Assembly (NCBI GenBank): GCA_039636795.1
Contig: CP143430.1
Location: forward strand, 5,084,001-5,148,000
DNA from: Micrococcaceae bacterium Sec5.1
GTDB lineage: Bacteria; Actinomycetota; Actinomycetes; Actinomycetales; Micrococcaceae
Direction of reading: 5' to 3'
DNA: 64,000 nt
This document shows positions 47,727 to 63,289 of the stretch, in pieces. The notes under the pieces were generated by a model, which had not been told where the DNA came from, made no database searches, and worked only from the letters and a program-made list of their open reading frames with translations. Made by a program: the position numbers and the translations under genes. Position 1 is the first letter of the stretch, and the number at the start of each line of letters is the position of its first letter.

Positions 47727-47795
47727 GCCCTATTGTTTCCCGGCCAGGTGCATAGCTTCGTTCCTGCTCGAGGCATAAGAGCCGCACCTCATCGT

Positions 47796-49550: not shown

Positions 49551-49584
49551 TCGAAAAAAATGGCCGATAAAAGCATGCGGGTGC

Positions 49585-49813: not shown

Positions 49814-51553
49814 ATGGGGAGACAGAGCAGAGCCAAACGTGAGCGACAGGAGGCAGGGCTTCCTCACCCCTCTGTGGAGAAGAGGAGGATGGCCGAAGGT
49901 TGGCTCGCGCAGGATCGTGGGATGACGCTTGGGCCCACGATTATGGACTTTCTTGCGGCGACAGAAGTCGACGGGCACCTGTGGATTCGACAACGACTTA
50001 TCGCGAACCACAACGTTCGTATGGTGGCAACTGCACGTTTCCCAGCCCAGTACCTTGTGGAATGCTGGACGCCCCTGAGACACCTGAGTCTGCTCTACAT
50101 TGGACTCTGCCAATCTGGCTACGATCGTGACCAACACCCATCTAGTCACTCCGGTGAATGGGCGGATCAACTCCAGTGGGGACTCGACAGTATTCAGCAA
50201 TCCGTGCGACTTCTCCTCTCCGGTCAGTTGGTCGGAGCCGCCGTTATCGCGAGAAGCCAACTCGAGCGCTGGACCCTAAACCGAGCCTTCCAAACCGACC
50301 TACATCAACACCCAAAGGAGTCAATGGCAGATTTCGTGGGCAGGGTCTGGAAAAAACGACCGTTCGATCGATACCGCTTTGGCCAGACCGACCTGCTCGT
50401 CGACGGACGGGAAATACTCCCTGAGGAGGTCATGCAGGGTCTGCACGATATCATCCACGCTAGGGCGCACATAGACGTCTTGGACTGGGCCAACGGTGGG
50501 TTTATCGATACGAAAGTTGACGCACGTCCTGCGCTGAGAGTGGTTTCAGACGCCTTGGTGCTCGCAACTCAGCAACTTACACTCTGCGTCGCTACCCTGT
50601 TGCAGGAAAACGGGAAACCGAGCATTGCTCGGGCTCTAGTAGAAAACATCCCTTCCATCGAGCGAATTGGTGTTTCGCCTAGGCCGGGTACTTGGTGGCC
50701 AGTCAATCTCCTGTTGATTCAGGGTTCCGCCGCAGTCCAGATTCACCGGGCCGCTGCCAACTTTGACGCAGTCTGCCGCGGGGAAAGACCCGCCGGCCGG
50801 GCCTACAACAACGGAGAATTGATGGAACTTTGCTTCACTAACTACCGGTCCAGATCCATTAGGACCGCTGAGGCAGCCTTCCACAGAGAATTCGAGAAGG
50901 TGGGTCGTCCCCTCACGCAGGACAACCTAGATGGAAGCGAAACTCCGCCGCTTGTGACTAGTGAAATGGCAGCAGTTTTGGCGTCCTGGCTTCCTTTGGG
51001 GAGTCCGATCCATGCAGCAGCAGCAGCGGTGTCGGACGCGCTCCGGGGGTCCTATTGGCTCTGGCTCGAGGACGACATGCGCGCTATGGCGACGCTACGC
51101 GTCGTTCTCGAACAAACCGCCAGAATGAGGGTTTGGAGACTGAAACCCCAGCAGGCTGTCGGCCTTGAAGAGAATTCGACTCCCACCCGGTGGTTGGAAC
51201 GCGCTGGGTGGCGGCGCCTAGCCTCGCTGAATCGGGTGTTGGGGGAGATGTCCCACCTCCGCATAGGCGTGGGATGGGGGGAAGCGTTCAATCTGCTAGT
51301 GCTGTTGAACCCCGATGCGTCTCCCGAAGAAGCGCCATATACAGCCCGCCGACATGCGCTTGAGGCAGTAACGCGATTGGTCATGAAGGAACTTCGTGAA
51401 CAGGTGCGTGATCTAGGCTCAGGCGTGGGATCGGCATTCGACGCGATAGCGGAAGAAATCTTTGCGGGTGGTCCTGCTGTTGACAAACAACTCGACGATT
51501 ACCTGAATCATGTCCAAACGTTTCGTTCATACACTTTCCCGATGGGAAGCTGA
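49814..51553 (+). CDS. Large unknown protein with internally repeated halves
   Basis: A 579-residue cytoplasmic protein that I cannot place. A basic start (MGRQSRAKRERQEAG) precedes two helical halves with a shared pattern: GQLVGAAVIARSQLERWTLNRAF near 140 and DDMRAMATLRVVLEQTARMRVWR near 420, each followed some 60-70 residues later by a His-containing helix (LHDIIHARAHIDV; LGEMSHLRIGVGW). The R-x-x-L-E pattern recalls DUF5677-type helical proteins linked to HEPN folds; that resemblance is weak. It lies in the same repeat-framed block as the HEPN-like gene. ATG 49814 has GGAGA nearby but spacing is long. Confidence 0.65.
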   Translation: MGRQSRAKRERQEAGLPHPSVEKRRMAEGWLAQDRGMTLGPTIMDFLAATEVDGHLWIRQRLIANHNVRMVATARFPAQYLVECWTPLRHLSLLYIGLCQSGYDRDQHPSSHSGEWADQLQWGLDSIQQSVRLLLSGQLVGAAVIARSQLERWTLNRAFQTDLHQHPKESMADFVGRVWKKRPFDRYRFGQTDLLVDGREILPEEVMQGLHDIIHARAHIDVLDWANGGFIDTKVDARPALRVVSDALVLATQQLTLCVATLLQENGKPSIARALVENIPSIERIGVSPRPGTWWPVNLLLIQGSAAVQIHRAAANFDAVCRGERPAGRAYNNGELMELCFTNYRSRSIRTAEAAFHREFEKVGRPLTQDNLDGSETPPLVTSEMAAVLASWLPLGSPIHAAAAAVSDALRGSYWLWLEDDMRAMATLRVVLEQTARMRVWRLKPQQAVGLEENSTPTRWLERAGWRRLASLNRVLGEMSHLRIGVGWGEAFNLLVLLNPDASPEEAPYTARRHALEAVTRLVMKELREQVRDLGSGVGSAFDAIAEEIFAGGPAVDKQLDDYLNHVQTFRSYTFPMGS

Positions 51554-51704
51554 GGCTCGGGAGAATTATCTCAAGCTTAGAGGCCAGAGGACACCGCAGG
51601 GTGATGCCACCTTTGCTCGTAGAAAGTCACCGGCGTCACTGAAAGGACGCACCCGGTCTAAAGGAGGCCGATTGCCTCATAACTTCCTTCTGCCGGTTGG
51701 ATGT

Positions 51705-51822
51705 TCAGGGGCCCTTTCTGAGAGCTTCTTCGTAAAAGGCGAGTCGCGTAGCGGCTCGCGCCATGTCACGTTGTTCCTTGATGTAGGAGTACGCGATCCA
51801 GCAGCCGGCGACGAGAATGTGG
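51705..51822 (-). pseudogene. Gene remnant cut by the 440-bp repeat
   Basis: Leftwards, the frame reads HILVAGCWIAYSYIKEQRDMARAATRLAFYEEALRKGP and stops at 51705. It looks like a membrane helix plus a charged helix with good codon use. Its N-terminal end is lost exactly where the direct repeat begins (51823), suggesting the repeat was inserted into, or recombined with, this gene. Confidence 0.5.
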
Positions 51823-51838
51823 CTGTTATGGTCGGAGC

Positions 51839-52204
51839 ATGAAACGCGCGTTCGCGACAGGTGGGCTGCTTCTGGTGCTGACCCCACTCCTGGCTGGCTG
51901 TATGGGCGACTACTTTGCGTCCGACGACTGCGACGGTCTTGCGAACGAGCTCTCTCTGGTCATCGGGGAGTCCATCGAGTCCTCGCCATCCATAAACAGC
52001 ACTTGGGGCGACGGCGGGATAATGCCGTGGTGCCGGATCGACTACTCAACGACCAAAGACCATGCGCCGGACGATGAGCGCCTCAGCGCGATGAAATCAG
52101 AAGTCGAGGCCGGAATGGCGGACTGGTCAAGTGGCGTCGTCGTGACAATACATTTGGGCACCGACCGCAGCATTGAAGTTCTTTCGCCTGACGATAAGCG
52201 CTGA
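51839..52204 (+). CDS. Small lipoprotein, copy 2
   Basis: Same length (121 residues) and signal peptide with lipobox Cys21 as copy 1; differences include V/M at 22, SPVIEKSIGSA against SLVIGESIESS, and IEFSTNKEY against IDYSTTKDH. Function unknown. It is preceded by the same 15-bp leader GTTATGGTCGGAGC and followed by the same hairpin, so each copy is a complete transcription unit. Confidence 0.8.
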   Translation: MKRAFATGGLLLVLTPLLAGCMGDYFASDDCDGLANELSLVIGESIESSPSINSTWGDGGIMPWCRIDYSTTKDHAPDDERLSAMKSEVEAGMADWSSGVVVTIHLGTDRSIEVLSPDDKR

Positions 52205-52226
52205 AACAACGCGTCTCGCGATGCAG

Positions 52227-52248
52227 CTAGAGCCCCCGAGAGCTCTAG
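52227..52248 (+). terminator. Hairpin after lipoprotein copy 2
   Basis: CTAGAGC (52227-52233) pairs with GCTCTAG (52242-52248), equivalent to the hairpin after copy 1. Confidence 0.6.
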
Positions 52249-52359
52249 CCCGAATTGTTTCCCACAATAAAAAGGGCTTCACATCGTCTTCGCCGAGATT
52301 CTAAGGCGCAAGCGGAGGCCCGCTCGGCACCCGAAAGTCCAGACGGAGGCATTAAGTGA

Positions 52360-52382
52360 CCGGTGAAGGATCGGCTTAGGGG
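52360..52382. repeat. GGATCC palindromic element, copy 1 (decayed)
   Basis: CCGGTGAAGGATCGGCTTAG keeps the left arm of the family consensus but the right arm is altered. It lies between the lipoprotein and RidA genes. Confidence 0.55.
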
Positions 52383-52464
52383 CTTTTGAAGTGTCCGAGG
52401 GGCAGTCCTTGGTGCGCCCCCGTTGCTAGGCTGCAACAGCCACTCCCCCTACAGAAGGACACTC

Positions 52465-52872
52465 ATGTCGCGCGCGGTCACCCTCATACGTTCCAACGCA
52501 CTTTCAGATACAGCTCAGTACGCCTATGCGGCAACCGCTCCCAGCAACGCACGGCTTATCTTCTTGGCCGGCGCGTGTCCTTTGAATGAGGACGGGTCGA
52601 CGGCGGGTGTCGGGGACTACGCGGCGCAGGCTGAGAAGGCGGTCCACAACCTGTGCCTCGCCTTGGAAGCCGCCGGCGCGAGCCTTGAGGACGTGGTCTC
52701 CACCCGCGTTCTTGTCGCATCAACTCACCAGGACGATTTGGTTACCGCATGGGACGTAGTCCGGGCGGCTTTTGGCACCCACGACGCTCCGAGCACTTTG
52801 ATGGGCGTAAGGGTTCTTGGTTACATCAGCTAGCTTGTTGAAATTGAAGCGATCGCCGCAGTCCTCGACTGA
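52465..52872 (+). pseudogene. RidA (YjgF/UK114) family gene with in-frame stop
   Basis: ATG 52465 opens a RidA-type enamine/imine deaminase frame (SDTAQYAYAATAPSNARLIFLAGACPLNEDGST, YAAQAEKAVHNLCLALEAAGASLEDVVSTRVLV). At 52831 a TAG interrupts it right after VRVLGYIS. The same frame then continues LVEIEAIAAVLD to a TGA at 52870, which is exactly the family's normal C-terminus, where Q usually precedes LVEIEA. So a single CAG-to-TAG change explains the break. The 122-residue product lacks the last strand and Glu used at the active site. The RGN-type arginine (here STRVLV) is present. Confidence 0.85.
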
Positions 52873-52882
52873 ACGGTCATTT

Positions 52883-52910
52883 GACCGCTCAGGGATCCTT
52901 CAGCGGGCAC
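52883..52910. repeat. GGATCC palindromic element, copy 2
   Basis: CCGCT-cAGGGATCCTTc-AGCGG with the family's trailing GCAC, 11 bp after the old RidA stop. Confidence 0.7.
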
Positions 52911-52941
52911 GCAATCCAGCAGACCTTTTGCTTCCGTCCGT

Positions 52942-53148
52942 ATGTCCTTGGCTCCCCGTGAAGAAGCGTTCCAGACTGCGCCTGATCAAACCCGAGCCTG
53001 GTCCAAGGCACCCATCAGCCTCGTCACCCACAACCTCCTTCGCGCCCGCCGCTTCGCTCGTGTTGGTGGCAGGCCGGCTCGTTATGTTGATCCTGCCCAA
53101 CTTCCCGCGCTCAATAGATTCATGGACGGTATAAGGATTTTGCCGTGA
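52942..53148 (+). CDS. Short doubtful frame before the next gene
   Basis: A 68-codon frame whose TGA overlaps the GTG of the next gene by 4 bp. The reading (SLVTHNLLRARRFARVGGRPARYVDPAQLPALNRFMDG) has fair codon use but no recognisable family. It may be a coupled small gene or chance; the 270 bp between RidA and the next gene hold nothing better. Confidence 0.25.
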   Translation: MSLAPREEAFQTAPDQTRAWSKAPISLVTHNLLRARRFARVGGRPARYVDPAQLPALNRFMDGIRILP

Positions 53149-53489
53149 GACCTGAATACAGGGATCAAGCATCCGGACTAATCCGCTGGTACTCCCCCGG
53201 CGAAGGAGGTCGGCCGAACGGGCCGCCTTCGGGTCCAAGTTATGCTTCGACGGCCGTTTTCGCAGACGCATCCATGGATAGGGAGGTTCAACAGATCGTC
53301 AATGTTGAGCCATACAGTGTGGTGGTTACATTCGGGAAATCGGATGGAAAGGGTCGTACTGAGGCAAAGTTCAGGTTTCTCGCTTTGGACGTAATGGGCT
53401 CCCGGTTGCAACCAGGCGCGACCTTCTATCTGATGGAAGGATCGCATGTCGTGGGCGAGGCGCTAGTAATTGAGCTTCTCAAACTGTAG
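53145..53489 (+). CDS. Unknown protein, EF-Tu-domain-like, immunity-type
   Basis: A 114-residue protein with SGLIRWYSPGEGGRPNGPPSGPSYASTAVFAD at the start, central strands (YSVVVTFGKSDGKGRT, FRFLALDVMGSRLQPGATFYLMEGSHVVGEALVIELL). The GGRpnGPPsGPxYxxTAvF and final PGxxxxxMEGxxVVGxAxI pattern recurs in many actinobacterial small proteins and resembles a beta-barrel of translation-factor domain II. These are often in immunity-gene clusters; I infer an immunity role only weakly. GTG 53145 is the likely start. Confidence 0.65.
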   Translation: MRPEYRDQASGLIRWYSPGEGGRPNGPPSGPSYASTAVFADASMDREVQQIVNVEPYSVVVTFGKSDGKGRTEAKFRFLALDVMGSRLQPGATFYLMEGSHVVGEALVIELLKL

Positions 53490-53545
53490 ATCTCAAAGCT
53501 GGGAGCAAATCAGGGTAGGGTGGCCCACCGTGCGTTACAGCGCGC

Positions 53546-53567
53546 GATTGGGGATCCCTAACCGGAC
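53546..53567. repeat. GGATCC palindromic element, copy 3
   Basis: GATTGGGGATCCCTAACCGG lies between two small genes, keeping the GGGGATCCC centre and ACCGG arm. Confidence 0.6.
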
Positions 53568-53666
53568 GTTGCCCATCTGGTCTAAGGACGCTCGATTGAG
53601 GCCGCGACATGGCGCGCAGTTTTTCAGCGGCGGGCCGGGATCTCCGCTCAGGACTAGTATTCGGTC

Positions 53667-53975
53667 ATGTCAGACAAACCAGGTCGTCGCGTTATCCGCC
53701 TATTCCCTGATTACGGGCATCTATGGCCACTTTGGGAGAACAGCACGGCCGAGCATCCGACTAAATACACCATGGAGCCGGCGGATTTCGGACTCTCTCA
53801 GGAGCTCACCAGCCGGCTTCGAGCTTGGTATGACGCCTGGGAAGCAGAGAAATTGCATGTGAGCGGTTGGAGTTCGCGGGACGCGGAGAACGCGTGGAGA
53901 GCTGAGGGAGCCAGGATTGCGGAGCAGCTTCGCGACGAGATCAAGGCCTTCGCTGATGTGGAATACGACGAGTAA
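53667..53975 (+). CDS. Unknown small acidic protein
   Basis: A 102-residue protein, rich in Trp and acidic residues: RVIRLFPDYGHLWPLWENSTAEHPTKYTMEPADFGLSQELTSRLRAWYDAWEAEKL. The opening R-V-I-R-L-F-P-D-Y-G-H-x-W-P-L-W-E pattern is familiar from actinobacterial small genes near polymorphic toxins. It has no signal peptide or membrane helix. A cytosolic immunity protein is possible but unproven. It stands between two GGATCC elements. Confidence 0.65.
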   Translation: MSDKPGRRVIRLFPDYGHLWPLWENSTAEHPTKYTMEPADFGLSQELTSRLRAWYDAWEAEKLHVSGWSSRDAENAWRAEGARIAEQLRDEIKAFADVEYDE

Positions 53976-54003
53976 CAGCCCCGGTGACTAAGACGGCACT
54001 ATA

Positions 54004-54035
54004 GAAGTGTCCTTGGGATCCTTCAACGGGCACGG
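54004..54035. repeat. GGATCC palindromic element, copy 4
   Basis: GAAGTGTCCTTGGGATCCTT followed by CAACGGGCACGG. It keeps TTG-GGATCC-TTCAA symmetry and the trailing GGGCACGG shared with copy 9. Confidence 0.7.
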
Positions 54036-54081
54036 TTGTTCCTTGTCCGCTGTGCTCCCTTGCTGCGGCTATGCTCGTGCC

Positions 54082-54537
54082 GTGAGCATCGTTGGAGGCA
54101 CTGCGCAGGACCACTTTCGTTCGATGGTGCGCACGGAATTGGCGCCGGAGCTGCGTCGCCTTGGTTTCCGCGGAAGCGGTGCACAGTTCGAACTTCCATC
54201 CGCCAGTCATTGGTTATTACTGGGCATTCAGAGATCAACGTCCAGTACCGCGGATGAGGTGCGCTTCACGGTGAACCTTTCTGCAGTCGACCGCCAGGCG
54301 TGGATCACCAAGCGTGAGACGGAGAAGTGGATGGGTGTGCGGCCTAGCGCAAACGTCTTGGGTCCTGTCACGACATCAATGCGTTTGGGAGTACTCATAT
54401 GGGGAACTGACACCTGGTTTGCTATCCAGCCGAACCGATCCACTAAGGACGTCGCCTTTGAGGTCTTGGACGCCATTAGCGACAAAGGCATCTCCTGGTT
54501 ACGCTCCCAGGAGTCTTCCAATGAGTCCCGCCCGTAA
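54082..54537 (+). CDS. DUF4304-like protein
   Basis: A 151-residue protein resembling DUF4304: FRSMVRTELAPELRRLGFRGSGAQFELPSASHWLLLGIQRSTSSTADEVRFTVNLSAV, then WFAIQPNRSTKDVAFEVLDAIS. The LRRLGFRGSG..F pattern at the start and VRFTVNL strand are the family's marks. Function is not known; members occur near toxin-immunity loci. GTG 54082 is preferred over the upstream in-frame ATG at 54007, because that extension would cross the GGATCC element. Confidence 0.75.
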   Translation: MSIVGGTAQDHFRSMVRTELAPELRRLGFRGSGAQFELPSASHWLLLGIQRSTSSTADEVRFTVNLSAVDRQAWITKRETEKWMGVRPSANVLGPVTTSMRLGVLIWGTDTWFAIQPNRSTKDVAFEVLDAISDKGISWLRSQESSNESRP

Positions 54538-54665
54538 GGCGATCCACTATGCCTCACGCTTCGGTGTGCTCCTCCAACCGTCCTCGAAAGATGCGGCCAA
54601 AGCGCCTCTATTAACCCTGAACAAAACGGCGTTCCCAACTAACCGTCACGGAATCCCTCAGGACT

Positions 54666-55598
54666 TCACCGGCCCGTGACTAGGAAAAGAACTGCCATGA
54701 GCGCGTAGACGCCCCCAAGGATAAGGCCAAGGATCGCAAATATTCGATACTTCTTTGGCGTTCCATACGCTTGGGGCAGGCCCATAGCTGACAGCACAAT
54801 GGCCGCCAGCGAGAGAATCAGCCCAAATATAGGGATTGAAAATAGAAAACAGGACGCAACTCCCAGTGCGAACCCAGTCGCTGCGACCGGATTCGCTGGT
54901 GGATTGACGGCGGCCTGCGCGTGCGTGTGCCGGGTCCAGGCTCCACCGTCCCACCATCGCTGTTGGGAGGAGCTGTTGGGGTCGGCGTACCAACCTGCCG
55001 CCGGCTTATTCATCTGAAGTCGGCCTTTTGCTTCGGATTGGGGATCAATGTTTGCGGATGTCGCTGGTTGGAAATTTCGTGAGAGTTCCGGCTTAGCAGA
55101 CTTCGAAGCACGGAGCTTCACTCCAGCAACCCAGAAGAGGACGAGCCCTGCGACATCGAACGGGATCCAGAACTCCCGCGTGGCATACACCGGAACAAGC
55201 GGGTTGAACAGAACGGCTATAGCCACAAAGACACCAGCCCAAAGTGTTCTTTTCTGGGTGCCAGCAATGACGGCCACCCAGATTGCCGCCGCAGTCACAG
55301 CCCACCGCATGATGATGTACAACTCGTACTGGCCGCCCAAGTATGCCAGTAGCAGGAAGAACGCCCCGATGATGGCCGGCACCGTGGCCGGATGAGCCAT
55401 GACCAGTGGCACGCCGTGTAACTGCTCCTCGGATCGCGGAGCAGTTGCGTGTCGTTGACCCCGGGACGGGTATGGGTCGAACGCAACCGGTGTTGTCGAA
55501 CGGTGTACTACGTGCGAAGTCCATGCCTGCCCATCCCACCATCTCTGCTGTGATGGTTCGCTGGGATCGCTGTACCAGCCTGCAGCCGGACTACTCAT
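54666..55598 (-). CDS. Double DUF2510 membrane protein (fusion)
   Basis: A 310-residue protein that looks like two proteins joined. Each half starts with a DUF2510 domain: AAGWYSDPSEPSQQRWWDGQAWTSHV at 5-30 and AAGWYADPNSSSQQRWWDGGAWTRHT at about 200-225. The first is followed by four membrane helices of DUF6804 type (PAIIGAFFLLLAYLGGQYELYIIMRWA, FVAIAVLFNPLVPVY), the second by DUF4190-like helices (GFALGVASCFLFSIPIFGLILSLAAIVLSAMGL). DUF2510 is a short outside or inside Trp-rich domain of unknown role. Gene fusion or duplication is likely. Confidence 0.8.
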   Translation of the reverse strand: MSSPAAGWYSDPSEPSQQRWWDGQAWTSHVVHRSTTPVAFDPYPSRGQRHATAPRSEEQLHGVPLVMAHPATVPAIIGAFFLLLAYLGGQYELYIIMRWAVTAAAIWVAVIAGTQKRTLWAGVFVAIAVLFNPLVPVYATREFWIPFDVAGLVLFWVAGVKLRASKSAKPELSRNFQPATSANIDPQSEAKGRLQMNKPAAGWYADPNSSSQQRWWDGGAWTRHTHAQAAVNPPANPVAATGFALGVASCFLFSIPIFGLILSLAAIVLSAMGLPQAYGTPKKYRIFAILGLILGGVYALMAVLFLVTGR

Positions 55599-55617
55599 GG
55601 AAACCGCCCTTTCACGT

Positions 55618-55854
55618 TCAACCTGAGGTCACTGTAGGCCACGGAAGGGCTGCTTTGGCTAACGCTTCGATGGCCGCCTTCGCCTCTTCTCGTAGTGAAG
55701 CCGCCCAAGGCCAACGGTCTGTCGTGCCTGTCAAAGTGCCCATTGGCCGATCCCTTCCGGACGCTTGAAGCGTCGGTAAGACCACCGGCTTATGGGCACA
55801 TAATTTGATAAACGGGCCCCATGGCTGGCCCACCAAGTCGTGCAAAGGAACCAC
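55618..55854 (-). CDS. Possible small gene coupled to its upstream neighbour
   Basis: A 78-codon frame starting at GTG 55854, 3 bp past the upstream gene's stop. It reads VPLHDLVGQPWGPFIKLCAHKP, later RWPWAASLREEAKAAIEALAKAALP. Codon use is mixed, yet the Trp/Pro-rich opening looks like a protein and the end like an amphipathic helix. No family recognised; could be chance. Confidence 0.35.
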   Translation of the reverse strand: MVPLHDLVGQPWGPFIKLCAHKPVVLPTLQASGRDRPMGTLTGTTDRWPWAASLREEAKAAIEALAKAALPWPTVTSG

Positions 55855-55856
55855 TA

Positions 55857-56216
55857 CTAGTCCGAGAGGTCCTCTCCTTCGGCTTCATATTGGTGCGCGA
55901 GGGTCTCTCCTCGCCGCGTTAGCCTCAGCCAAAAGCCTTCACCCATCGGTCGCCACTCTAGAGCATCGAGTGCCATCTCTGACCAAATAACCCATGTTTC
56001 TGACGGAGGCGTCCAATCCTCAAAGCCCGTCTCCCCGAGCTCTCCAGGCACCAGGAGCCCCTCCGAATAAACGGAGTGAAGGACGTCCAGGACTACCTGC
56101 TTCGTATCCGGACTAATTGTGCCTCTAGTGCCCCACCACACGACGTTATGCAATGAAACCCAGTCGGCTAGGCCCGATACGACTAACTTACGGATGACTT
56201 CGTCTTTGCTTACCAC
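55857..56216 (-). CDS. Unknown protein, immunity-type
   Basis: A 119-residue acidic protein: KDEVIRKLVVSGLADWVSLHNVVWWGTRGTISPDTKQVVLDVLHSVYSEGLLVPGELGETGFEDWTPPSETWVIW then GFWLRLTRRGETLAHQYEAEGEDL. The W-V-S-L-h-x-v-v-W pattern and E-x-G-F-x-x-W are familiar from small actinobacterial immunity-like proteins. GTG 56216 is chosen for its GGAAGG site; an upstream open stretch to 56339 lacks coding character. Confidence 0.65.
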   Translation of the reverse strand: MVSKDEVIRKLVVSGLADWVSLHNVVWWGTRGTISPDTKQVVLDVLHSVYSEGLLVPGELGETGFEDWTPPSETWVIWSEMALDALEWRPMGEGFWLRLTRRGETLAHQYEAEGEDLSD

Positions 56217-56417
56217 GGCACGCCTTCCGCCAGATGTACGTCCGGCCTGATCCCGTTGCAGGGAAGATGTCGGTCGATAGTCCACTGGTCCCGGCATTAG
56301 GACTTTCACAAGAGCCTTGCGCCATCGAGCAAAGGACAATCGCTTAGAGTTCTGCCGCGTATCCCGTCGTCTCAGAGATGGTCCAAGCTCATACTAGTCA
56401 GGGCTGATTGGCTGCTG

Positions 56418-56765
56418 CTATGTCCGTAGAAGCGTGTCGTGCACCGTCACGTGCTCGCCGACCTGAACGGTCAATAGACCGTCCAGTCCCTCACAGCGGG
56501 ACCACACTCGGAACTCTATGCGTCCATGCTCGTCACGCACGGAGATCTTCGATGCTGTCTCCCGCTCAAGAGAAAGCCGCACGTCGTCACCGTCACGCCA
56601 ACGGACGCTTGCTGACCCAGCGATCTCATCCCAGGTCAGCTTGACGGTGCACCCATCGTTCGCCCACGCGATCACTGATACCACCCACGGCTGGCTGGAC
56701 GGCTCGATCACAATTCCGAGATCATCCAGGTCTTCTAGCCGCGGAACCTCAAGTTGCGCGCTCAT
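56418..56765 (-). CDS. Unknown small beta-rich protein
   Basis: A 115-residue protein from ATG 56765. It alternates beta-like strands with acidic turns (WVVSVIAWANDGCTVKLTWDEIAGSASVRWRDGDDVRLSLERET, IEFRVWSRCEGLDGLLTVQVGEHVTVHD). No known domain. Lack of signal peptide or membrane helix suggests a cytosolic location. Confidence 0.6.
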   Translation of the reverse strand: MSAQLEVPRLEDLDDLGIVIEPSSQPWVVSVIAWANDGCTVKLTWDEIAGSASVRWRDGDDVRLSLERETASKISVRDEHGRIEFRVWSRCEGLDGLLTVQVGEHVTVHDTLLRT

Positions 56766-56811
56766 AACCACATGCTGTCACACTCGGCATGCGCAATGAC
56801 CTGGGCTAGCT

Positions 56812-56837
56812 GCACGCTTAGGGATCCGTTACCGTGC
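56812..56837. repeat. GGATCC palindromic element, copy 5
   Basis: GCACGctTAgGGATCCgTTA followed by cCGTGC; inverted arms GCACG/CGTGC flank the GGATCC centre. Confidence 0.65.
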
Positions 56838-56889
56838 GCCGCTGCTTCTGCGAACGACTCCGCAACGGCGGTCGCCAGGTCAATTCATC

Positions 56890-57408
56890 TCAGTCATCTG
56901 AAGCGACAATGACGTGGAGCGTGCCGAGAATCCGATCAATCACAATGTACTCGTGGAAACCCAAGCTGCCGGTGACGAAGCCGTAGTCATGTTCAGCTTC
57001 ACGCGGGGGATTGTGCAGCTTCAGGACAGGACCTGAGTCCAAGAGTGAATAGATGGTTCCCAACCGTTGAATGGCATCGGCGGGTTGGGAGAATTCCGGG
57101 TCCGTCCAATCTTGGTCATTTGCCCAGACATCGATCTCGGCTCTCGCGGCCTCGGCCGTCGATGCCTCGAACAGACCCGGATGGATGGCATCAATCCTCC
57201 ACCGCCCGTGGATGCCCCATGCGCGGACTTCCGTCGCCGGAGGAAAGGGGGATGCATAGTCGTGCTGATACCCGGGGCTCTGTATCAGGCTCTCGAGAAT
57301 GGACTGGCTGTCCTGGCCTGGGTCGATGAGGAAATGCGTCAGGGCGACCCACATAAAAGTACCGGGCCCTAGATGGACGGTGTCTTCTCCAACAAGGGGC
57401 AATGTCAT
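56890..57408 (-). CDS. Unknown protein, immunity-type
   Basis: A 172-residue protein: VALTHFLIDPGQDSQSILESLIQSPGYQHDYASPFPPATEVRAWGIHGRWRIDAIHPGLFEASTAEAARAEIDVW and LGFHEYIVIDRILGTLHVIVASDD. The final D-R-x-x-x-x-L-H-V-I-V-A-S-D-D pattern recurs in small immunity-like proteins of Actinobacteria, in my recollection. Mixed alpha/beta, cytosolic. Function unproven. Confidence 0.65.
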   Translation of the reverse strand: MTLPLVGEDTVHLGPGTFMWVALTHFLIDPGQDSQSILESLIQSPGYQHDYASPFPPATEVRAWGIHGRWRIDAIHPGLFEASTAEAARAEIDVWANDQDWTDPEFSQPADAIQRLGTIYSLLDSGPVLKLHNPPREAEHDYGFVTGSLGFHEYIVIDRILGTLHVIVASDD

Positions 57409-57594
57409 TGCTCAAATGTATTTCAAGGTTCGGTGGCTGGGCCGTTGGCGGCGCGTGCACCAAGTAGATCGCCACTCGGCAATGTCTTGCCATAAGGCGA
57501 TCCTCAAGGGGACGCTGGGCGTCCGGTGGGCACCGTTCAAGTTTGACGCGCACTCAGAGGTGCGGAGCACCTCCTTTCTTGTCTAGAAACGGAT

Positions 57595-57622
57595 GCCCGG
57601 TGAAGGATCCCTTACCGAACGC
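57595..57622. repeat. GGATCC palindromic element, copy 6
   Basis: GCCCGGTGAAGGATCCCTTA then CCG, one mismatch from a perfect palindrome over 20 bp. Confidence 0.75.
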
Positions 57623-57664
57623 CCGAATCCATGGCATCGGATCTGGAAACGGGCACCACTGATC

Positions 57665-58309
57665 TCACAGCTCTGGGCGATTTGAAGATACAAGGAATGG
57701 GTTAGTCAGAGCCCTAAGACTGTTGAGTGCTGCAATCTGTGGGTACTGATCCCTGTGGAATCGCCATCGATCATAGGCATTCCAGTAGCTCAGCGCCCTT
57801 TGAACTGTCAGGCTTATGAATGCCGGATTGTCCTTGGTGAATTGGACATAGGCCTGTTGGAGTTCGGGTCGCTCAGCTAGCGTCGTCCCAAAGAACTGCT
57901 TTAGATCGTTGCCGATTTCGATGACGTATTCACCGCAGAGCTGGACCACGAACGGAATCGTCCACGAGGCATTCGCTTCGAGGAGATCCCGGAGAGCCGC
58001 TTGGCGGATTCGTCCGTCACCGTGTCTGGACATCCAAGCTGCGAGGATGAGTAATTGCTCTGGTCCCAGATTTTGAGTGCGACTAACCTCCGGCCACTGG
58101 TAGTAGGTCCTGTACGGGATTTGAACCAACTCACCCGAGATGTGAATTTTGATGGGGGACGGAGACCGGCCGTTTGTGTCTTGGATGAGTAGCGACATAG
58201 TTGGATGGTTTGGACACGCCAGAGCACGGAGTGCGGCGTTGGCATCCGCGCGAAACTCCAAGGGCACGGCGCCGAGGAGAAGAGGATCCATTATGGACGA
58301 CTCGTTCAT
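57665..58309 (-). CDS. Unknown protein, immunity-type
   Basis: A 214-residue helix-rich protein. Its middle (VQIPYRTYYQWPEVSRTQNLGPEQLLILAAWMSRHGDGRIRQAALRDLL, then WTIPFVVQLCGEYVIEIGNDLKQFF) is conserved-looking: a strand with Y-R-x-Y followed by HEAT-like helices. I recall similar unnamed proteins in Microbacteriaceae and Streptomyces near toxin loci. No enzyme motif is seen. Either ATG 58309 or ATG 58291 may start it. Confidence 0.65.
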   Translation of the reverse strand: MNESSIMDPLLLGAVPLEFRADANAALRALACPNHPTMSLLIQDTNGRSPSPIKIHISGELVQIPYRTYYQWPEVSRTQNLGPEQLLILAAWMSRHGDGRIRQAALRDLLEANASWTIPFVVQLCGEYVIEIGNDLKQFFGTTLAERPELQQAYVQFTKDNPAFISLTVQRALSYWNAYDRWRFHRDQYPQIAALNSLRALTNPFLVSSNRPEL

Positions 58310-58372
58310 TGGCTCATTAAAGCAGCGCCAAAACCCTCATCACCGAAAGGGATGCCTTCGCCGTCACTGGTA

Positions 58373-58394
58373 TCCCATTTCCTTGGAATTGGAA
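58373..58394. repeat. Second palindrome family, copy 1 (inverted)
   Basis: TCCCATTTCCTTGGAATTGG is an inverted, diverged copy of the TTCCACTTCCTTGGAAGTGG element at 59467. It lies between two minus-strand genes. Confidence 0.5.
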
Positions 58395-58420
58395 CAGGGA
58401 GGGGACGCGGGCCGGAACAT

Positions 58421-58771
58421 TCAGCCATTCGTGTCTTCGGAGATGGCTTCCAGGGCAAGGAGCATCGCGTGGGCTTCCTCAACCGAGAAGCGGGTGACAA
58501 GAGGCCACTCCCACCCGGCGCCGTAGTAATCATCGGTCACAGCAATACGAGCGATACGGATTGCTACTGGCAAGTCACTGATGTCCAAACCTTCCCCGCT
58601 GTCCAGTGCATCGATAAGGCTGTGGCGCTTCGAGTGGAAGGCCGTGTTATCCGCAAAGTCCAGCTTTCGAGCGAAGTGGTCCGACGACGACGCTGGGCCC
58701 CTCCAAACACGGAGCGCCGTCAGCAGGAAATCGCATAGGTCATCAGTAGGGTTTGTCAGCACTCTGGTCAC
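58421..58771 (-). CDS. Unknown protein, immunity-type
   Basis: A 116-residue protein ending AVTDDYYGAGWEWPLVTRFSVEEAHAMLLALEAISED. The W-x-W-P-L-V-T-R-F-S-x-x-E-A-h-x-M-L pattern is a recognisable but unnamed actinobacterial family. The start is uncertain (GTG 58771 or GTG 58762). Cytosolic, acidic. Its upstream region holds a copy of the second palindrome. Confidence 0.6.
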   Translation of the reverse strand: MTRVLTNPTDDLCDFLLTALRVWRGPASSSDHFARKLDFADNTAFHSKRHSLIDALDSGEGLDISDLPVAIRIARIAVTDDYYGAGWEWPLVTRFSVEEAHAMLLALEAISEDTNG

Positions 58772-58802
58772 CCATGAAGCTAACCATGCTCCGTTGAGGG
58801 AT

Positions 58803-58826
58803 GTTCCACTTCCTTGTGAGTGGGAC
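58803..58826. repeat. Second palindrome family, copy 2
   Basis: GTTCCACTTCCTTGTGAGTG followed by GGAC; one altered pair in the centre compared with the copy at 59467. It lies between the divergent genes at 58771 and 58881. Confidence 0.65.
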
Positions 58827-58880
58827 GGTGGCAGTTTCGGTATCTCCCATGCTGCCCGGGGCTCCGCGTAGAGTCTGAGA

Positions 58881-59423
58881 ATGAATCCTCTGGTGCAGCC
58901 TGTACTCGTTGCGTCCCCTTACAGGCTCCGCCCGTTTACGGCAGCCGATGTTCCAGTGGTCCAGGAAGCCTCGAGCGATCCACTAATTCCTGCCATCACG
59001 ACGGTTCCCGCCAGCGGTTCACGCCAGGCAGCTCTGGCCTTCATCGAAAGACAGCACCGGCGCTTAGTTGATGGCACCGGGTACTCCTTCGCGATTGCTG
59101 ATTCCTCCTCTGATCAGGCGGTTGGCCAAATCGGACTGTGGCTGAAGAACCTCAGCCAAGGCCGGGCGAGCATTGGCTACTGGGTGGCACCAGCCCATCG
59201 AGGGAAGGGAGCTGCTTCTTCTGCTTTAGGTGCCCTCGCCGCCTGGGGTCTTGCGCACCCCGGGATTCATCGACTGGAACTCTACGTCGAGCCTTGGAAT
59301 GAGGGCTCCTGGCGCGCAGCCGAGCGCAGCGGGTTCGTACGTGAAGGGACGATGAGGAGCTGGCTAGAGATTGGCGGCAAGCGCAAGGACATGTACATGT
59401 ACTCGCGCCTTCCTGCTCGCTAG
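58881..59423 (+). CDS. GNAT acetyltransferase, RimJ/RimL-like
   Basis: A 180-residue GNAT enzyme of the RimJ/RimL class, which acetylate protein N-termini or small molecules. YRLRPFTAADVPVVQEASSDPLIPAI opens the family fold; ASIGYWVAPAHRGKGAASSALGALAAWGL is the acetyl-CoA loop (R-G-K-G-A), and RLELYVEPWNEGSWRAAERSGFVREGTMRSW the typical RimJ/L ending. ATG 58881. It is one of few clear enzymes in the accessory stretch. Confidence 0.9.
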   Translation: MNPLVQPVLVASPYRLRPFTAADVPVVQEASSDPLIPAITTVPASGSRQAALAFIERQHRRLVDGTGYSFAIADSSSDQAVGQIGLWLKNLSQGRASIGYWVAPAHRGKGAASSALGALAAWGLAHPGIHRLELYVEPWNEGSWRAAERSGFVREGTMRSWLEIGGKRKDMYMYSRLPAR

Positions 59424-59466
59424 GAATCACGCTTCGCGGACCTCCCTGCTCTGCCGCGGTTTCGGT

Positions 59467-59490
59467 GTTCCACTTCCTTGGAAGTGGGAC
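59467..59490. repeat. Second palindrome family, copy 3
   Basis: GTTCCACTTCCTTGGAAGTG followed by GGAC; nearly perfect 24-bp palindrome, 43 bp after the GNAT stop. Confidence 0.7.
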
Positions 59491-59526
59491 ATCATTGACA
59501 GGCACACTCCTCAATCGCGCATCTGA

Positions 59527-59793
59527 TTGTCAGCCAAGGTTCCTCTGGTACCGTTCGATGCCGCGCGGGTGCCCGTAGGGGGATCCCTTACCGGGCATCA
59601 GATCAAGAAGGTCTACCCCGCCGTCTGGCAGGAGTTGGGCGGAGTCCCCGATCGCTCCCGTAGAGTGGTGGTCCTCCCGGACCTGGCCTGGCTCGAACAG
59701 GCGACCACCCTCACCAAACTACGGGCAGGACACGCACTTACCGGGTATACGCATCTTGGGCAGGTTCGTACTGAGCATATGTTGCCTAATTGA
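59527..59793 (+). CDS. Frame of unknown function running through a palindrome (possible fragment)
   Basis: An 88-codon frame. From residue 20 it reads LTGHQIKKVYPAVWQELGGVPDRSRRVVVLPDLAWLEQATTLTKLRAGHALTGYTHLGQ, with strong GC third-position bias, so this part was surely coding once. Its beginning runs through a GGATCC element at 59571-59596, and no ribosome site is seen, so it is probably the tail of a gene cut off at that element. No family recognised. Confidence 0.4.
   Translation: MSAKVPLVPFDAARVPVGGSLTGHQIKKVYPAVWQELGGVPDRSRRVVVLPDLAWLEQATTLTKLRAGHALTGYTHLGQVRTEHMLPN
59571..59596. repeat. GGATCC palindromic element, copy 7
   Basis: GCCCGtaGGGGGATCCCtta followed by CCGGGC; outer arms GCCCG/CGGGC and centre GGGATCCC are paired. 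Confidence 0.7.
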
Positions 59794-59852
59794 AGAATTG
59801 AATTGGGCACCAATTGAGCCGTATGGGTTACACCTAGGCGAAGATTCTTCAT

Positions 59853-60206
59853 ATGCACGATTCGATCCTTCCCGCGCAGATCCAGCTGACCACCAGGTTC
59901 GGGGCTGTTCCAGCACCGCCCTCGCAAGGAGTGAACGTAGGAGTTTCCGAAAACCTGCGGTCACCGCATCTTCTACCCCTCAACGGTCTAAGGCATCCCG
60001 CCGCAACCGGGGCCAGTGGCTGGTTCATTTGGCGCGGCGAAGAGCTCGGAACCGCGCACGACTTCTTCGTTCCCTTGCACGTCGAGCATCTGACGACCTG
60101 GTGTCCGGAAGTCCTTCCCTATCTCGCGTTGCCTCCGGGGTGGCGATTCCTCTTAGCACCCGGCTACGAAGATGTCTGGTTCGACGAGTCGTTGTTGAAT
60201 GCCTAA
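59853..60206 (+). CDS. Imm33-like immunity protein
   Basis: A 117-residue protein. The second half, GWFIWRGEELGTAHDFFVPLHVEHLTTWCPEVLPYLALPPGWRFLLAPGYEDVWFD, matches the immunity-type family I know as Imm33-like (W-x-F-x-P-L-H-v-x-H-L, C-P, Y-L-x-L-P-P-G-W-R-F, G-Y-E-D-V-W-x-D). Such proteins neutralise contact-delivered toxins; no cognate toxin gene is seen in this window. ATG 59853 gives the usual length. Confidence 0.75.
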   Translation: MHDSILPAQIQLTTRFGAVPAPPSQGVNVGVSENLRSPHLLPLNGLRHPAATGASGWFIWRGEELGTAHDFFVPLHVEHLTTWCPEVLPYLALPPGWRFLLAPGYEDVWFDESLLNA

Positions 60207-60249
60207 GGGAAGCTGATGATCCGGCTCAAGCTCCCTTCCAGTTCGCCGT

Positions 60250-60276
60250 CCGGTGAAGGATCCTTCACCGGGCACG
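60250..60276. repeat. GGATCC palindromic element, copy 9 (perfect)
   Basis: GTGAAGGATCCTTCAC (60254-60269) with three more paired bases on each side: a perfect 22-bp palindrome, followed by GGCAC. It is the best copy and may represent the intact element. Confidence 0.8.
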
Positions 60277-60521
60277 GTTGCCCGTTGGTGGGCGGGAATC
60301 TGCAACAGGGTGACCATGGCCTGGAGGCACGTAATGGGCCGCCGGTTCTCTGGGGGCACGGAGCCGAGTAAGTGAGACTGGGCTCCGGATTTCTGGTCCT
60401 GGCTGGCCCGTCTTGCTGGTCCTGGCTCCCCCGTCTTAAGAGAACGTGCATTCCGTTTGACATCGACGAAACTAGAGGAAGACTATGGGCAAACAAAATC
60501 GTCGTCTTCTATGGAGTTCTC

Positions 60522-60809
60522 ATGGCGGGAATCATGCTGGTCAAGCAGCGCGTCGCCGACGTCGCCCAATGGGATGCGGTGTTTCACGACCCGGAGTTGG
60601 ACGCGGTGCGTCGCCGCCACGGGCTGGTGGTCACCGGAACCTACCTCGACGCGGAGACTCCGAACACCGTCATTGTTGCGATGGACATGGCCGATCTCGA
60701 CCTGGCCCGGCAGTTCGCTTCCTCCGCCACGTTGGCCGACGCCCGCGAGAGGGCCGGAGCGATCGGCCCACCGGAGGGCGTCTGGTATGGCCCGAGAGAG
60801 GTTCGTTGA
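60522..60809 (+). CDS. Small protein of ferredoxin-like (DUF3764-like) fold
   Basis: A 95-residue protein: VKQRVADVAQWDAVFHDPELDAVRRRHGLVVTGTYLDAETPNTVIVAMDMADLDLARQFASSATLADARERAGAIGPPEGVWYG. The H-x-V-x-D, F-x-D pattern with V-x-x-a-x-D-m-x-x-A-x-x-F resembles dimeric alpha/beta-barrel proteins, including DUF3764. No catalytic residue can be named. ATG 60522 is the likely start; the longer frame upstream has no coding character. Confidence 0.65.
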   Translation: MAGIMLVKQRVADVAQWDAVFHDPELDAVRRRHGLVVTGTYLDAETPNTVIVAMDMADLDLARQFASSATLADARERAGAIGPPEGVWYGPREVR

Positions 60810-60915
60810 CCGTGCACGGCGAGGCCGACCGGGCGCTGCCACGCTCATGGATCGGCGCAACCCCGCTCGGGATGGCGCGGCTTCGGGCCAAAAGATCGAA
60901 GTCGATTTCACATAC

Positions 60916-60941
60916 GCCCGTTGAGGGATCCTCTACCGGGC
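60916..60941. repeat. GGATCC palindromic element, copy 10
   Basis: GCCCGttGAGGGATCCTCta followed by CCGGGC, then ACTGAAGTGCCCC; arms and centre are paired. Confidence 0.75.
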
Positions 60942-61004
60942 ACTGAAGTGCCCCTTGATTCCGGCCTACTTGGCAGTGCCCCTCCAGGACCATATCCGCG
61001 TAGC

Positions 61005-61484
61005 ATGACGGCATGCCTGACCGGGACGAGACCGAAGCCGCTTCAATTACTCCCTCCTGGCACGGCCCGGAGTTATGCGGAGTACAAGCCTGCCACTGAT
61101 AAACCCTCTCCTGCGCCAATCAACGTTGGCGGTTACGACGAGCTCCTCACCTGCTGCCAAGGGAAACGAGTGGTCCTTCCCCGCTCACGCGAGGGCCTTG
61201 TTGTAATTGATGCGCTGACTGTGGACCCGGAGGCGATGAAAGATCTAACCTGACTCGCTGCGGCCGTTGGCATGTTCTACGGAGACGTTCTCACTCACGC
61301 CATCCCGGGAGCTCATTGGGAAGTTATCGAAGTGGGCTTCCCAATGGTCCGGATAAGCAGAAACACAAGCATTTCGGTTATTCATGTGGCTCAACGATGG
61401 CTTGATGTAGGCTTCCCGACCCTGGTGATGAACTTCGACCACGCAACCGACCTCATTGACGAAGAGAGACTCCGAGGCAACTAG
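61005..61484 (+). pseudogene. DUF6278-like immunity-type gene, broken
   Basis: One frame gives INVGGYDELLTCCQGKRVVLPRSREGLVVIDALTVDPEAMKDLT, then TGA at 61251, then in the same phase LAAVGMFYGDVLTHAIPGAHWEVIEVGFPMVRISRNTSISVIHVAQRWLDVG to 61484. Together these read as one protein of a family I recall as DUF6278 (L-P-R-s-x-x-g-L, F-Y-G-D-V-L-x-H-x-i-P-G-a-x-W, V-I-x-V-A-Q-R). The TGA therefore splits it. The N-terminal end also seems out of phase: ATG 61013 in another frame reads PDRDETEAASITPSWHGPE before a stop. Likely a frameshift plus nonsense mutation. Confidence 0.65.
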
Positions 61485-61508
61485 GCACTGCTGATGTGCG
61501 GGAATGAG

Positions 61509-61536
61509 TGTCCAGTGAAGGATCCTCAAACGGCGC
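61509..61536. repeat. GGATCC palindromic element, copy 11 (decayed)
   Basis: TGTCCAGTGAAGGATCCTCA then AACGGCGC. Left arm and centre preserved, right arm altered. Confidence 0.6.
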
Positions 61537-61607
61537 TTGTCGTGCGCTGTTCAGCCGCGCAGCGAAAGGTGGCGCGCTTAGGAAGACCATTTGCGGAAGC
61601 CCGTCAC

Positions 61608-62753
61608 TTATCCCTGTGAATCTCGGTTTCGTCGGTTGCTCCGGAAGGGAAGGGCGTTTAGCGCAGCATTGCGTATCGTGATGCCCGACCGGGTCTTGGG
61701 TACAAGGAGGCGGGATGCGATGCCGGCGCCTCGTTGTTGCTGTCGAACGTGTTTGTGGTGTTTGTGTTCATAGTCGGCGAAAGCGGCGGTGTGGTCATCA
61801 GGGTGCGCGGCAATGGAGTCGGCGAGGGTCTTGGCTCCAACGATCGCGTTGCTGGATCCTTCACCGAACAGCGAGATACAACTTGCCGCGTCACCGAGCA
61901 GCACGACTCGGCCGGCAGCCCACTGCGGTACGTCCACGTGTGTGACGGCGTCGAAGTACCTATCGTCGGACGCGCCCCATTCCTTAAGGGCGAGCGTTGT
62001 GAGCCATCCGCCGCCGGCGTAGGCGGACTCGACGATGCGTCTGCCGTGTTCGGCGTCCCGGTAGTCGAAATCGTGCTGTCCCCGGAAGATGAATGCGAAC
62101 CCGGGCTTCCCACCTGCCGGATGGATGGTCAGGGAGGTTCCTGGTTCGTTGTACAACAGCACAGTGCGCGGATCTTCGATCGGCGCAGGCGCGCGCACCG
62201 TACCGACGAACATGCCGAAGGGGCGGGAAAAACGTTCTTCGGGGCCGAATGCCAAGCGGCGAACGGTGGAGTGGAGTCCGTCCGACCCGATGATCAAGTC
62301 ATAGCGACGGGAAGGGGTCCGCTGAAACTGGACGTCGATACCCCTGTCGTCCTGGTGCAAAGCGGTGATCGAGTCGTCCCGGATGATGAGGCTTGTCTCG
62401 TGTGCCTTCTCAAGCAACACGTCGACGAGTTCATTTCGTGCGACCTCGACCTCCTGTGGGCTGCCACCGCGTAGCCGCGTGGGGATCTTTGCCTGTGCAC
62501 GCCCGTCGGCGTCGACGAAGACCAAGCGTTCGACTCCGGTCGCGACCTCTTCCAGGTGGGACCAGATGCCCATTTGCCGTGCAATAGCGACGGCTCCTCC
62601 ACGTACGTCAATAGGGTTGCCACTAGATCGGATGTCGGCCGCTCGTTCCACAACCGTGACCGACCAACCTGCCTTCGCCAGCCAATACGCGGCCGTGGAA
62701 CCGGCAATGCCAGCGCCGGAGATCAGTATGTTGCGGTCCACCATGCATTTCAT
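61608..62753 (-). CDS. FAD-dependent aromatic-type monooxygenase
   Basis: A 381-residue flavoprotein hydroxylase. FAD-binding motifs are clear: ILISGAGIAGSTAAYWLAKAGWSVTVVERA (G-x-G-x-x-G), DLIIGSDGLHSTVRRLAFG (D-G motif) and RVVLLGDAASCISLFGEGSSNAIVGAKTLADSI (G-D motif). This single-component class hydroxylates phenols, polyketides or tetracyclines; tetracycline-inactivating enzymes and TetX-like proteins are in the same group, but the substrate cannot be fixed. ATG 62753 or 62744 starts it. It is divergent from nothing recognisable; about 300 bp without genes precede it. Confidence 0.92.
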   Translation of the reverse strand: MKCMVDRNILISGAGIAGSTAAYWLAKAGWSVTVVERAADIRSSGNPIDVRGGAVAIARQMGIWSHLEEVATGVERLVFVDADGRAQAKIPTRLRGGSPQEVEVARNELVDVLLEKAHETSLIIRDDSITALHQDDRGIDVQFQRTPSRRYDLIIGSDGLHSTVRRLAFGPEERFSRPFGMFVGTVRAPAPIEDPRTVLLYNEPGTSLTIHPAGGKPGFAFIFRGQHDFDYRDAEHGRRIVESAYAGGGWLTTLALKEWGASDDRYFDAVTHVDVPQWAAGRVVLLGDAASCISLFGEGSSNAIVGAKTLADSIAAHPDDHTAAFADYEHKHHKHVRQQQRGAGIASRLLVPKTRSGITIRNAALNALPFRSNRRNRDSQG

Positions 62754-63057
62754 TCAAGCACTCAGCCCTGGCGTATCCCGCGTATTGACCCCAATTTGCT
62801 CGGGCAAGTCAGCGGCAATCATGCGGGCAAGGATCAAAGTGGTCCCAGTTCCACGAGACACAGATGAGTACGAGCCGATGCTGTTGGCTGCTCCCTGGCA
62901 CCACATGCAGAGGAGGACCCTGGGCAGCCGACAGGGGCCGCATTCACACGGGCCCTGCTGTTGTAAACATCCTCCTGCCTACAACTTTGAGCTTCCCACG
63001 CCGATGCCAAACTACAGAGTGCTATCCCAGTCCCCTCACTTTTCCGCCATTTGGAGC
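62754..63057. other. Gap without a supported gene
   Basis: About 300 bp between the monooxygenase start and the ester-cyclase fragment. No frame, repeat or operator stood out on either strand. It should contain the monooxygenase promoter. Confidence 0.4.
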
Positions 63058-63280
63058 TCAATTTGGAGAGCCGCTGGGCATTAGGCGTCTCAGTACACCC
63101 GTCTGCTGGAGTAGGGAGAAACGGTCCGGAACGCCCCAATGCTCGGAGATACGTCCGTCGACGACGACGGCAATGTCGATGACCGTCACCTCGACCGGCT
63201 TCCCGCTGGGTGGTCCGAAGAACGGTCCCGTGTTTGTTCCTCGTCCGTGGAAACGCACCCAGGCCGTAGTGCCTCGGGTG
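63058..63280 (-). pseudogene. SnoaL-like/ester cyclase C-terminal fragment
   Basis: Leftwards, the last 70 codons of a frame read GTTAWVRFHGRGTNTGPFFGPPSGKPVEVTVIDIAVVVDGRISEHWGVPDRFSLLQQTGVL. This is the C-terminal half of a SnoaL-type NTF2-fold protein (G-x-F-x-G-x-P-x-x-G-K-x-V, h-v-d-G-x-I-x-E-H-W-x-x-x-D). The N-terminal half is missing; upstream the frame turns into antisense of another fragment. Hence a truncated gene. Confidence 0.7.
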
Positions 63281-63289
63281 GCCCAGTCC

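Follow-up and report, generated by a model that had tools for sequence, protein, structure and literature searches.

Integrons are the textbook case of a bacterial library of swappable genes, and their cassettes lie mostly in one orientation. A large survey, IntegronFinder 2.0, reported no complete integron in Actinobacteria (PMC9024848). Here, a stretch of 64,000 nucleotides (the window) from the actinobacterium Micrococcaceae bacterium Sec5.1 is considered, which covers positions 5084001-5148000 (G000:C1) of a single-contig 5.43-Mb genome. Toward its right end, small genes are separated by palindromic elements of ~30 bp centred on GGATCC. Taken together, the comparisons described below make it very probable that these elements serve as crossover sites in a system of gene cassettes, and that a small serine recombinase is its enzyme. 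The array in the window is a decayed copy of this cassette system, which is found across the genus.

Other described systems also come close. Small serine recombinases act at sites that are short dyads with a 2-bp centre; the known invertases and resolvases among them use two or a few such sites, for inversion or resolution. The pdif modules, in turn, depend on the host tyrosine recombinases XerC and XerD, with sites that have a central spacer and alternate in orientation. According to the published account, the pdif/dif modules of Acinetobacter hold accessory genes between short recombination sites, at which they are deleted or inverted; they move from plasmid to plasmid and are reported from Acinetobacter only (PMC13141974). 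Polyimmunity loci of polymorphic toxin systems are clusters of small genes that differ from strain to strain, with Imm33, SuFu and ankyrin types among them. The immunity genes are described as polycistronic, and recombinases lie near several of the loci, with a role that was only conjectured (PMC3482391).

The consensus of the element, GYGYCCGNTRRRGGATCCYYYANCGGRCRC, is a ~30-bp dyad with sharp ends. It was derived from 92 distinct copies among the top 150 of 272 matches (23 sources); there is also a sub-form, whose half-site is GTAAGCC. Good copies in the Sec5.1 genome are confined to two arrays, one at 47.2-61.5 kb of the window and the other at ~596-607 kb. A genome-wide scan with a simple pattern (≤2 mismatches) gave 32 matches, versus 6 for the reversed control pattern. 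All eight places with 0-1 mismatch fall in the two arrays, as do 8 further matches at ≤2 mismatches, and the 16 scattered matches all carry 2 mismatches. A covariance model built from 21 copies returned 31 rows at E<1, representing 21 distinct places (14 in the window array, 7 in the second), with three scattered places at E 1.9-7.1 only. Because 20 of these 21 places were training copies, and because 150 of 1095 first-look candidates were scored, the informative part of this result is that no stronger place was found elsewhere. In the genus, 82 of 121 genomes (Sec5.1 included) match at E≤0.05, where ~6 would be expected by chance if these rough E-values are taken at face value. Eight or more rows, many of them clustered, are found in 25 of the 121. 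An order-level sample gave matches in 15 of 297 genomes at E≤0.005.

An earlier note on this DNA had proposed such a genome-wide search; its outcome is that copies cluster in two arrays and are not evenly spread. That note had also considered a repetitive extragenic palindromic (REP) element with its own spread. REP-like or miniature inverted-repeat elements propagated by a transposase would, of course, account for intergenic palindromes in several genomes. Here, the genome has no match to a Y1 (REP-type) transposase at E≤0.001, and good copies occur in the two arrays instead of across the chromosome, which sets the system apart from REP elements and their associated tyrosine transposases. Further, it is the DNA between the elements that moves, not the element itself. 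The REP idea is not supported, and its probability is close to negligible.

Breakpoints were examined in a comparison set of 20 stretches from 15 other genomes of the same genus, to which 20 more loci were then added. Counting homologous blocks of ≥250 bp at ≥80% identity gave 193 blocks, with 111 ends within array spans. An element centre lies ≤18 bp from the block end in both sequences in 47 of the 111, versus 0.17 expected (3.9% coverage); 64 ends lie at an element in at least one sequence, versus 8.4 expected. Many breakpoints between genomes therefore coincide with elements. Together with the clustering, this supports the suggestion in the earlier note that the elements are recombination sites of a cassette array, for which breakpoints of this kind had been named as the thing to look for.

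The exchange point maps to within a few base pairs at the centre of the dyad. Of the 70 ends centred on an element, 44 were in register and were kept, and the remaining 26 were dropped. Over the 44, mean identity was 0.90 in the arm on the cassette side and 0.62 in the far arm, falling to 0.27 past the far arm. At ends with ≥98% identity, ten of ten (one of them from the dropped set) switch 1-5 bp past the centre, and base-level alignments put the switch at GA^TC. Several of the shared blocks are nearly identical. A 777-bp cassette is duplicated within genome G033 (98.3%), a 3368-bp block stands in two arrays of G110 (99.8%), a 3346-bp block is common to G110 and a 95-kb replicon of G096 (99.4%), and a 501-bp cassette occurs in both G080 and G115 (98.0%). 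The arrays of G080 and G115 have common outer flanks (91% and 96% identity), each of which stops at an element. Between these flanks, only two blocks are common to both, and their positions differ.

In these comparisons, orientation is random. Among 22 shared blocks, which are not all independent, 12 have the same direction relative to the recombinase and 10 the opposite; the strands of genes predicted inside 12 arrays divide 126:121. For G066, G080, G110a and G112, array direction was set by homology to the leader (described below) or to recombinase fragments, and the genes come from a simple in-house caller.

Could general recombination between short repeats, RecA-dependent or by slippage, move the cassettes instead? 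The elements are repeated sequences, and blocks of several cassettes are shared, as in the 3368-bp case. Such recombination would have to work on sites of ~30 bp whose far arms are just ~60% alike at the junctions, yet switch at the centre, and to deliver same and inverted orientations about equally often. This makes the explanation very unlikely. Under the preferred reading, in which a small serine recombinase acts on the elements, the enzyme would bind the 30-bp dyad as a dimer and cleave at the central 2 bp, the AT of GGATCC, leaving a 2-bp overlap. Any two sites could then be joined, giving excision, insertion or inversion of the DNA between them, presumably with circular intermediates. 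Units running from centre to centre would pass in this way between arrays and, given a palindromic site with a palindromic centre, would insert in either orientation.

Which enzyme might do this is suggested by the array regions themselves. When their proteins were clustered, small serine recombinases ranked first, with 9 members from 6 genomes. A search of the genus with the protein of G120, which is intact, separated a group at ~65-100% identity (clade I) from others at 36-47%. The protein carries the domains Resolvase (PF00239) and HTH_7 (PF02796). In 20 aligned sequences R7, S9 and R68 are invariant; these are taken to be the active-site serine and arginines. The nearest solved relatives are DNA-invertase chains (4m6f, 3uj3), followed by gamma-delta resolvase.

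To set clade I against the second group, 21 clade-I loci were taken from the 30 best matches, and 19 loci of serine recombinases at 36-47% identity served as controls. The clade-I loci omitted were those of G120, G110, G099 and G096, which are beside or near arrays already fetched, and five others whose choice had no bearing on elements. Elements were found at 17 of 21 clade-I loci versus 2 of 19 controls (Fisher P 8e-6). In the clade-I loci, 48 of 52 elements lie on the 5′ side of the gene, so that the recombinase reads away from the cassettes, as it does in integrons. Where a relative has the gene intact, it lies at one array end and points outward, in many cases following a conserved leader with a first site. 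This first site is close to CCCGTAAGCCGGTCGATCACCGTGC (≤6 mismatches) in 14 of 22 upstream regions, and in 10 it lies 112-115 bp before the gene. The conserved leader follows it, while sequences outside are unrelated. The leader carries further half-site-like motifs, which suggests that it is a resolvase res region.

That resemblance also feeds the strongest rival explanation. Here, some other enzyme (a tyrosine recombinase, the host Xer system, or another serine recombinase) exchanges the elements, and the clade-I gene at the edge travels as a passenger (a plasmid resolvase would be one example). Plasmids do commonly carry relatives of the recombinase (565 records at E≤1e-40, few of them checked for arrays), other serine recombinases lie near some arrays, and the Sec5.1 genome has eleven matches to the tyrosine-recombinase family PF00589. 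None of these eleven, however, lies within 1 Mb of either array, whereas both resolvase-domain matches of the genome sit at array edges. The contrast of 17/21 with 2/19 and the 5′ bias argue for a specific link with clade I, and a dyad exchanged at its centre is what fits a small serine recombinase. The passenger explanation is accordingly unlikely, more probable as it is than general recombination. The earlier note had suggested looking for a REP-associated tyrosine transposase or a recombinase; the former was not found, and the recombinase at the array edge turned out to be a serine recombinase of the family of resolvases and invertases, of which Sec5.1 has only broken fragments.

The association extends beyond the genus. 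Genomes of the GTDB gave at least 581 stretches that encode a relative of the recombinase, of which the best 80 were kept; some of these come from genomes already in the comparison set. The 80 include Arthrobacter, Pseudarthrobacter, Paenarthrobacter, Sinomonas, Nesterenkonia, Microbacterium, Cryobacterium, Frigoribacterium and others. Where the relative has ≥80% identity, canonical elements stand upstream in 18 of 20 loci. Plasmids encode the recombinase too, and on four plasmid records all 13 elements found are on its 5′ side (six on pAO1, one on p3132-53, two on pZXY24, and four on a plasmid of Arthrobacter sp. FW306-07-I). On pAO1 (L248, 15183-18734), genes for a resolvase, a Mu-type transposase and an AAA ATPase lie directly upstream of the clade-I recombinase, a set that would presumably be expected of a Tn5053/Tn402-like "res hunter" insertion. 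Clade-I relatives also appear in records titled Vibrio cholerae 35D (L188) and Planococcus (L163); these non-actinobacterial records are likely contamination.

Several observations weigh against the proposal that the clade-I enzyme works these sites. In 64 of the 111 block ends, an element is not present in both sequences. The 44 maximum-likelihood changepoints do not all fall at the centre: 25 are 0-6 bp past it, 12 are at 11-15 bp, and 7 are inside the cassette. Four of the 21 clade-I loci are without a canonical element and, among the best 80 loci of the wider search, those below 80% identity have an upstream element in just 14 of 60. In that same set, 69 elements lie upstream and 24 downstream (at 9 loci), with 14 of the 24 in Frigoribacterium (L205, L207, L216). 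Only three of the nine serine recombinases near arrays are of clade-I type (G000, G115, G120), the other six belonging to other subfamilies, three of them within ~0.3 kb of an element. Near the arrays at L046, L043, L056 and L059, recombinases of such other subfamilies stand close to elements (174-266 bp in three cases), so that the link between clade I and the element may not be exclusive. At the first site, the centre (GG^TC) is not palindromic and conservation extends to the outer half too; it is therefore a candidate insertion point and not a proven one. Last, the Sec5.1 genome has no intact serine recombinase, and the window array is consequently probably inert unless a recombinase is supplied in trans.

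This last point concerns the state of the two arrays of Sec5.1, which are probably both relics. Only two PF00239 matches (E≤0.001) occur in the genome. Each array has one of them at its left edge, where it is incomplete and reads away from the array. The one in the window, 46936..47133 on the minus strand, is the N-terminal part only, with one in-frame TGA. It aligns at 77% identity with residues 6-71 of the protein from G120 and scores 40.4 bits against PF00239. The leader, from the recombinase start to the first site, occupies 47134..47247, with homology to other leaders extending to ~47277, and may likewise be res-like. The first site, 47248..47277, is the sub-form with the GTAAGCC half-site.

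The left flank of the window array is matched in 166 of 206 genomes of the genus, Sec5.1 included, and among the 29 relatives that match best, the locus was fetched from 17. In every one of these, the left flank ends at 46932-46968, 10-276 bp follow, and the right flank then begins at 64933-64989, just past the window; no element was found at the empty locus in any of the 17. The segment absent from these relatives is ~18 kb long, occupying 46968..64000 of the window and ~935 bp beyond its end. With all 17 relatives empty at this place, the segment would most simply be an insertion in this lineage. The left flank of the second array was not found in the 9 relatives checked.

Within the window, a pattern scan gave 20 matches (shuffles, mean 1.9), which reduce to 13 distinct places because a palindrome scores on both strands. 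Ten of these are the places that the earlier note had put at 52360, 52883, 53546, 54004, 56812, 57595, 59571, 60250, 60916 and 61509; the other three carry 3 mismatches. The corresponding elements span 52356..52385 (sub-form GGATCGGCTTA), 52881..52910, 53540..53569, 54004..54033, 56810..56839, 57593..57622, 59569..59598, 60246..60275, 60914..60943, and 61508..61537, the last of the array. The exact ideal form occurs a single time, at 60253, within the element with a perfect core. The covariance model matches nine of the ten, the same nine being among its 21 training copies. It misses the copy at 54004, which was recovered by the pattern scan and a position-specific scoring matrix (score 11.1); this copy has GGATCC and a good right arm, while its left arm is decayed (4 of 15 pairs). 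The earlier note had noticed no copy in the first 52 kb. The array begins earlier, at 47248, and the model finds further elements at 48599..48628, 49581..49610 and 49615..49644; a weak one at 55736..55765 (model match 55733-55767) ends a shared cassette, the shared block starting at 55749. In the first 47 kb, the model found no element at E≤1.

The elements at 49581 and 49615 form a pair 34 bp apart, and such pairs recur at L009 (14763/14797), L043, L054 and L057; 7 of 210 gaps are 34-35 bp. Such a pair may be a cassette that is minimal and empty, or else a double site with a function.

An RNA-like hairpin was considered for the element and rejected, since covariation in the 21 copies was no greater than in shuffles. 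The 92 copies, which were gathered with a structure model, show a small but significant covariation excess, largest at pairs 8:29, 16:21 and 17:20. This excess, together with the placement of palindromes between genes of both strands, is what might recommend the idea that single genes are set apart by the elements as terminators working in both directions or as insulators that bind protein, the first of which the earlier note had entertained. The excess is missing from the first 21 copies, and it is confounded in the 92 by how they were collected. Moreover, a terminator leaves centre-to-centre exchange unexplained and does not predict a recombinase at the edge. As a replacement for recombination, this idea is extremely improbable; the elements may have a termination role in addition to recombination.

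The cassettes themselves are small. Outside the window, the median predicted gene in arrays is 148 aa and the median centre-to-centre distance 783 bp. The earlier note had read single small genes between elements; by open reading frames, this stands for most cassettes, while some hold two genes. One of the latter, 55750..56824, has minus-strand genes at 55857-56339 and 56418-56771, stands in the opposite orientation in G115 (88%), and is found in part in the second array of the genome (90%). A block with a GNAT acetyltransferase gene (58881-59423), 58803..59598, is common to G112 (94%, opposite orientation); its right end is an element and its left end a dyad of a second family. A block with a 102-aa gene, 53553..53998, is common to G066 (84%), its left end being an element centre. 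A 121-aa lipoprotein gene occurs twice in the window, at 47318-47683 and 51839-52204 (92% DNA identity over 445 bp), and also in loci of G120 and G038.

The contents were also said to be immunity-like, and this fits a minority. Among 16 window array proteins scanned against Pfam, the matches are RidA/L-PSP-like (52468..52833, plus strand), DUF4304 (54082..54537, plus strand), DUF2510/DUF6804, the GNAT acetyltransferase and Imm33-like (59853..60206, plus strand); 11 have no Pfam match. In other arrays, 113 of 120 sampled proteins were counted (the 7 left out are all from L044), giving SUFU 3, ankyrin 2, Barstar 2, NUDIX 2, Tautomerase 2, HxlR 2 and singletons among the 25 of 58 families listed. 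The PADLOC defence models had no match in 10 window proteins.

The second dyad family, GTCCCACTTCC-TT-GGAAGTGGGAC, is unrelated to the element. It has 11-bp arms and a TT centre and occurs at low copy in or near the same arrays. In the window it stands at 58372-58395, 58803-58826 and 59467-59490, all three in the same orientation, and one of these is a block end. It is also found in L047, L057, L062, L101, L104, L105 and the control L122, with 3 matches in shuffled loci. At L096, four copies of another dyad, GCCTCGAATCCCTAGGGATTCGAGAC, lie near a clade-I recombinase with one canonical element. A de novo search for palindromes around the recombinases gave mostly GC-rich palindromes, with 6 clusters in shuffled controls; the dyad at L096 was the one candidate of interest.

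How, then, does the system compare with those already described? As in integrons, small, mostly single-gene units form an array whose content varies between genomes, with a site beside a recombinase gene that lies at one end and reads away. Here, however, the array has serine recombinase remnants and no IntI-type tyrosine integrase. Its site is a ~30-bp, sequence-conserved GGATCC dyad with little covariation, in contrast to attC, which varies in sequence and keeps a folded structure (a comparison made without an attC covariance model), and its genes take random orientation. The system works like an integron; by the features that define integrons, it is not one. With pdif modules it has in common accessory genes bounded by short recombination sites, but chromosomal and plasmid arrays alike have a serine recombinase gene beside them. 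As for site form, the arms of the element are nearly symmetric around GGATCC. The clade-I enzyme belongs to the same family as the small serine invertases and resolvases, whereas its sites form arrays of many gene cassettes. Polyimmunity loci are likewise variable clusters of small genes, and one Imm33-like protein among 16 in the window, with the SUFU, Barstar and ankyrin proteins among the 113 elsewhere, recalls them; the arrays differ in having both gene orientations, mostly one gene per unit, and broader contents. No report of serine-recombinase cassette arrays was found in the open-licence PMC literature, outside which most subscription journals lie.

These arrays may well represent a separate class of gene-capture platform, a functional counterpart of the integron in Actinobacteria that is built from a small serine recombinase and orientation-free palindromic sites. 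Related subclades would use different dyads, perhaps GTCCCACTTCC-TT-GGAAGTGGGAC, across many actinobacterial genera and plasmids; the balance of the evidence leans slightly toward this broader view. On this evidence, many genomes of a common soil genus have a layout like that of integrons, with an enzyme class unrelated to theirs and a site that is simpler. The sequence itself now shows where a cassette starts and stops. The system also offers a testable mechanism for the accumulation of small immunity-like and unknown genes in variable clusters, which had been a matter of conjecture (PMC3482391).

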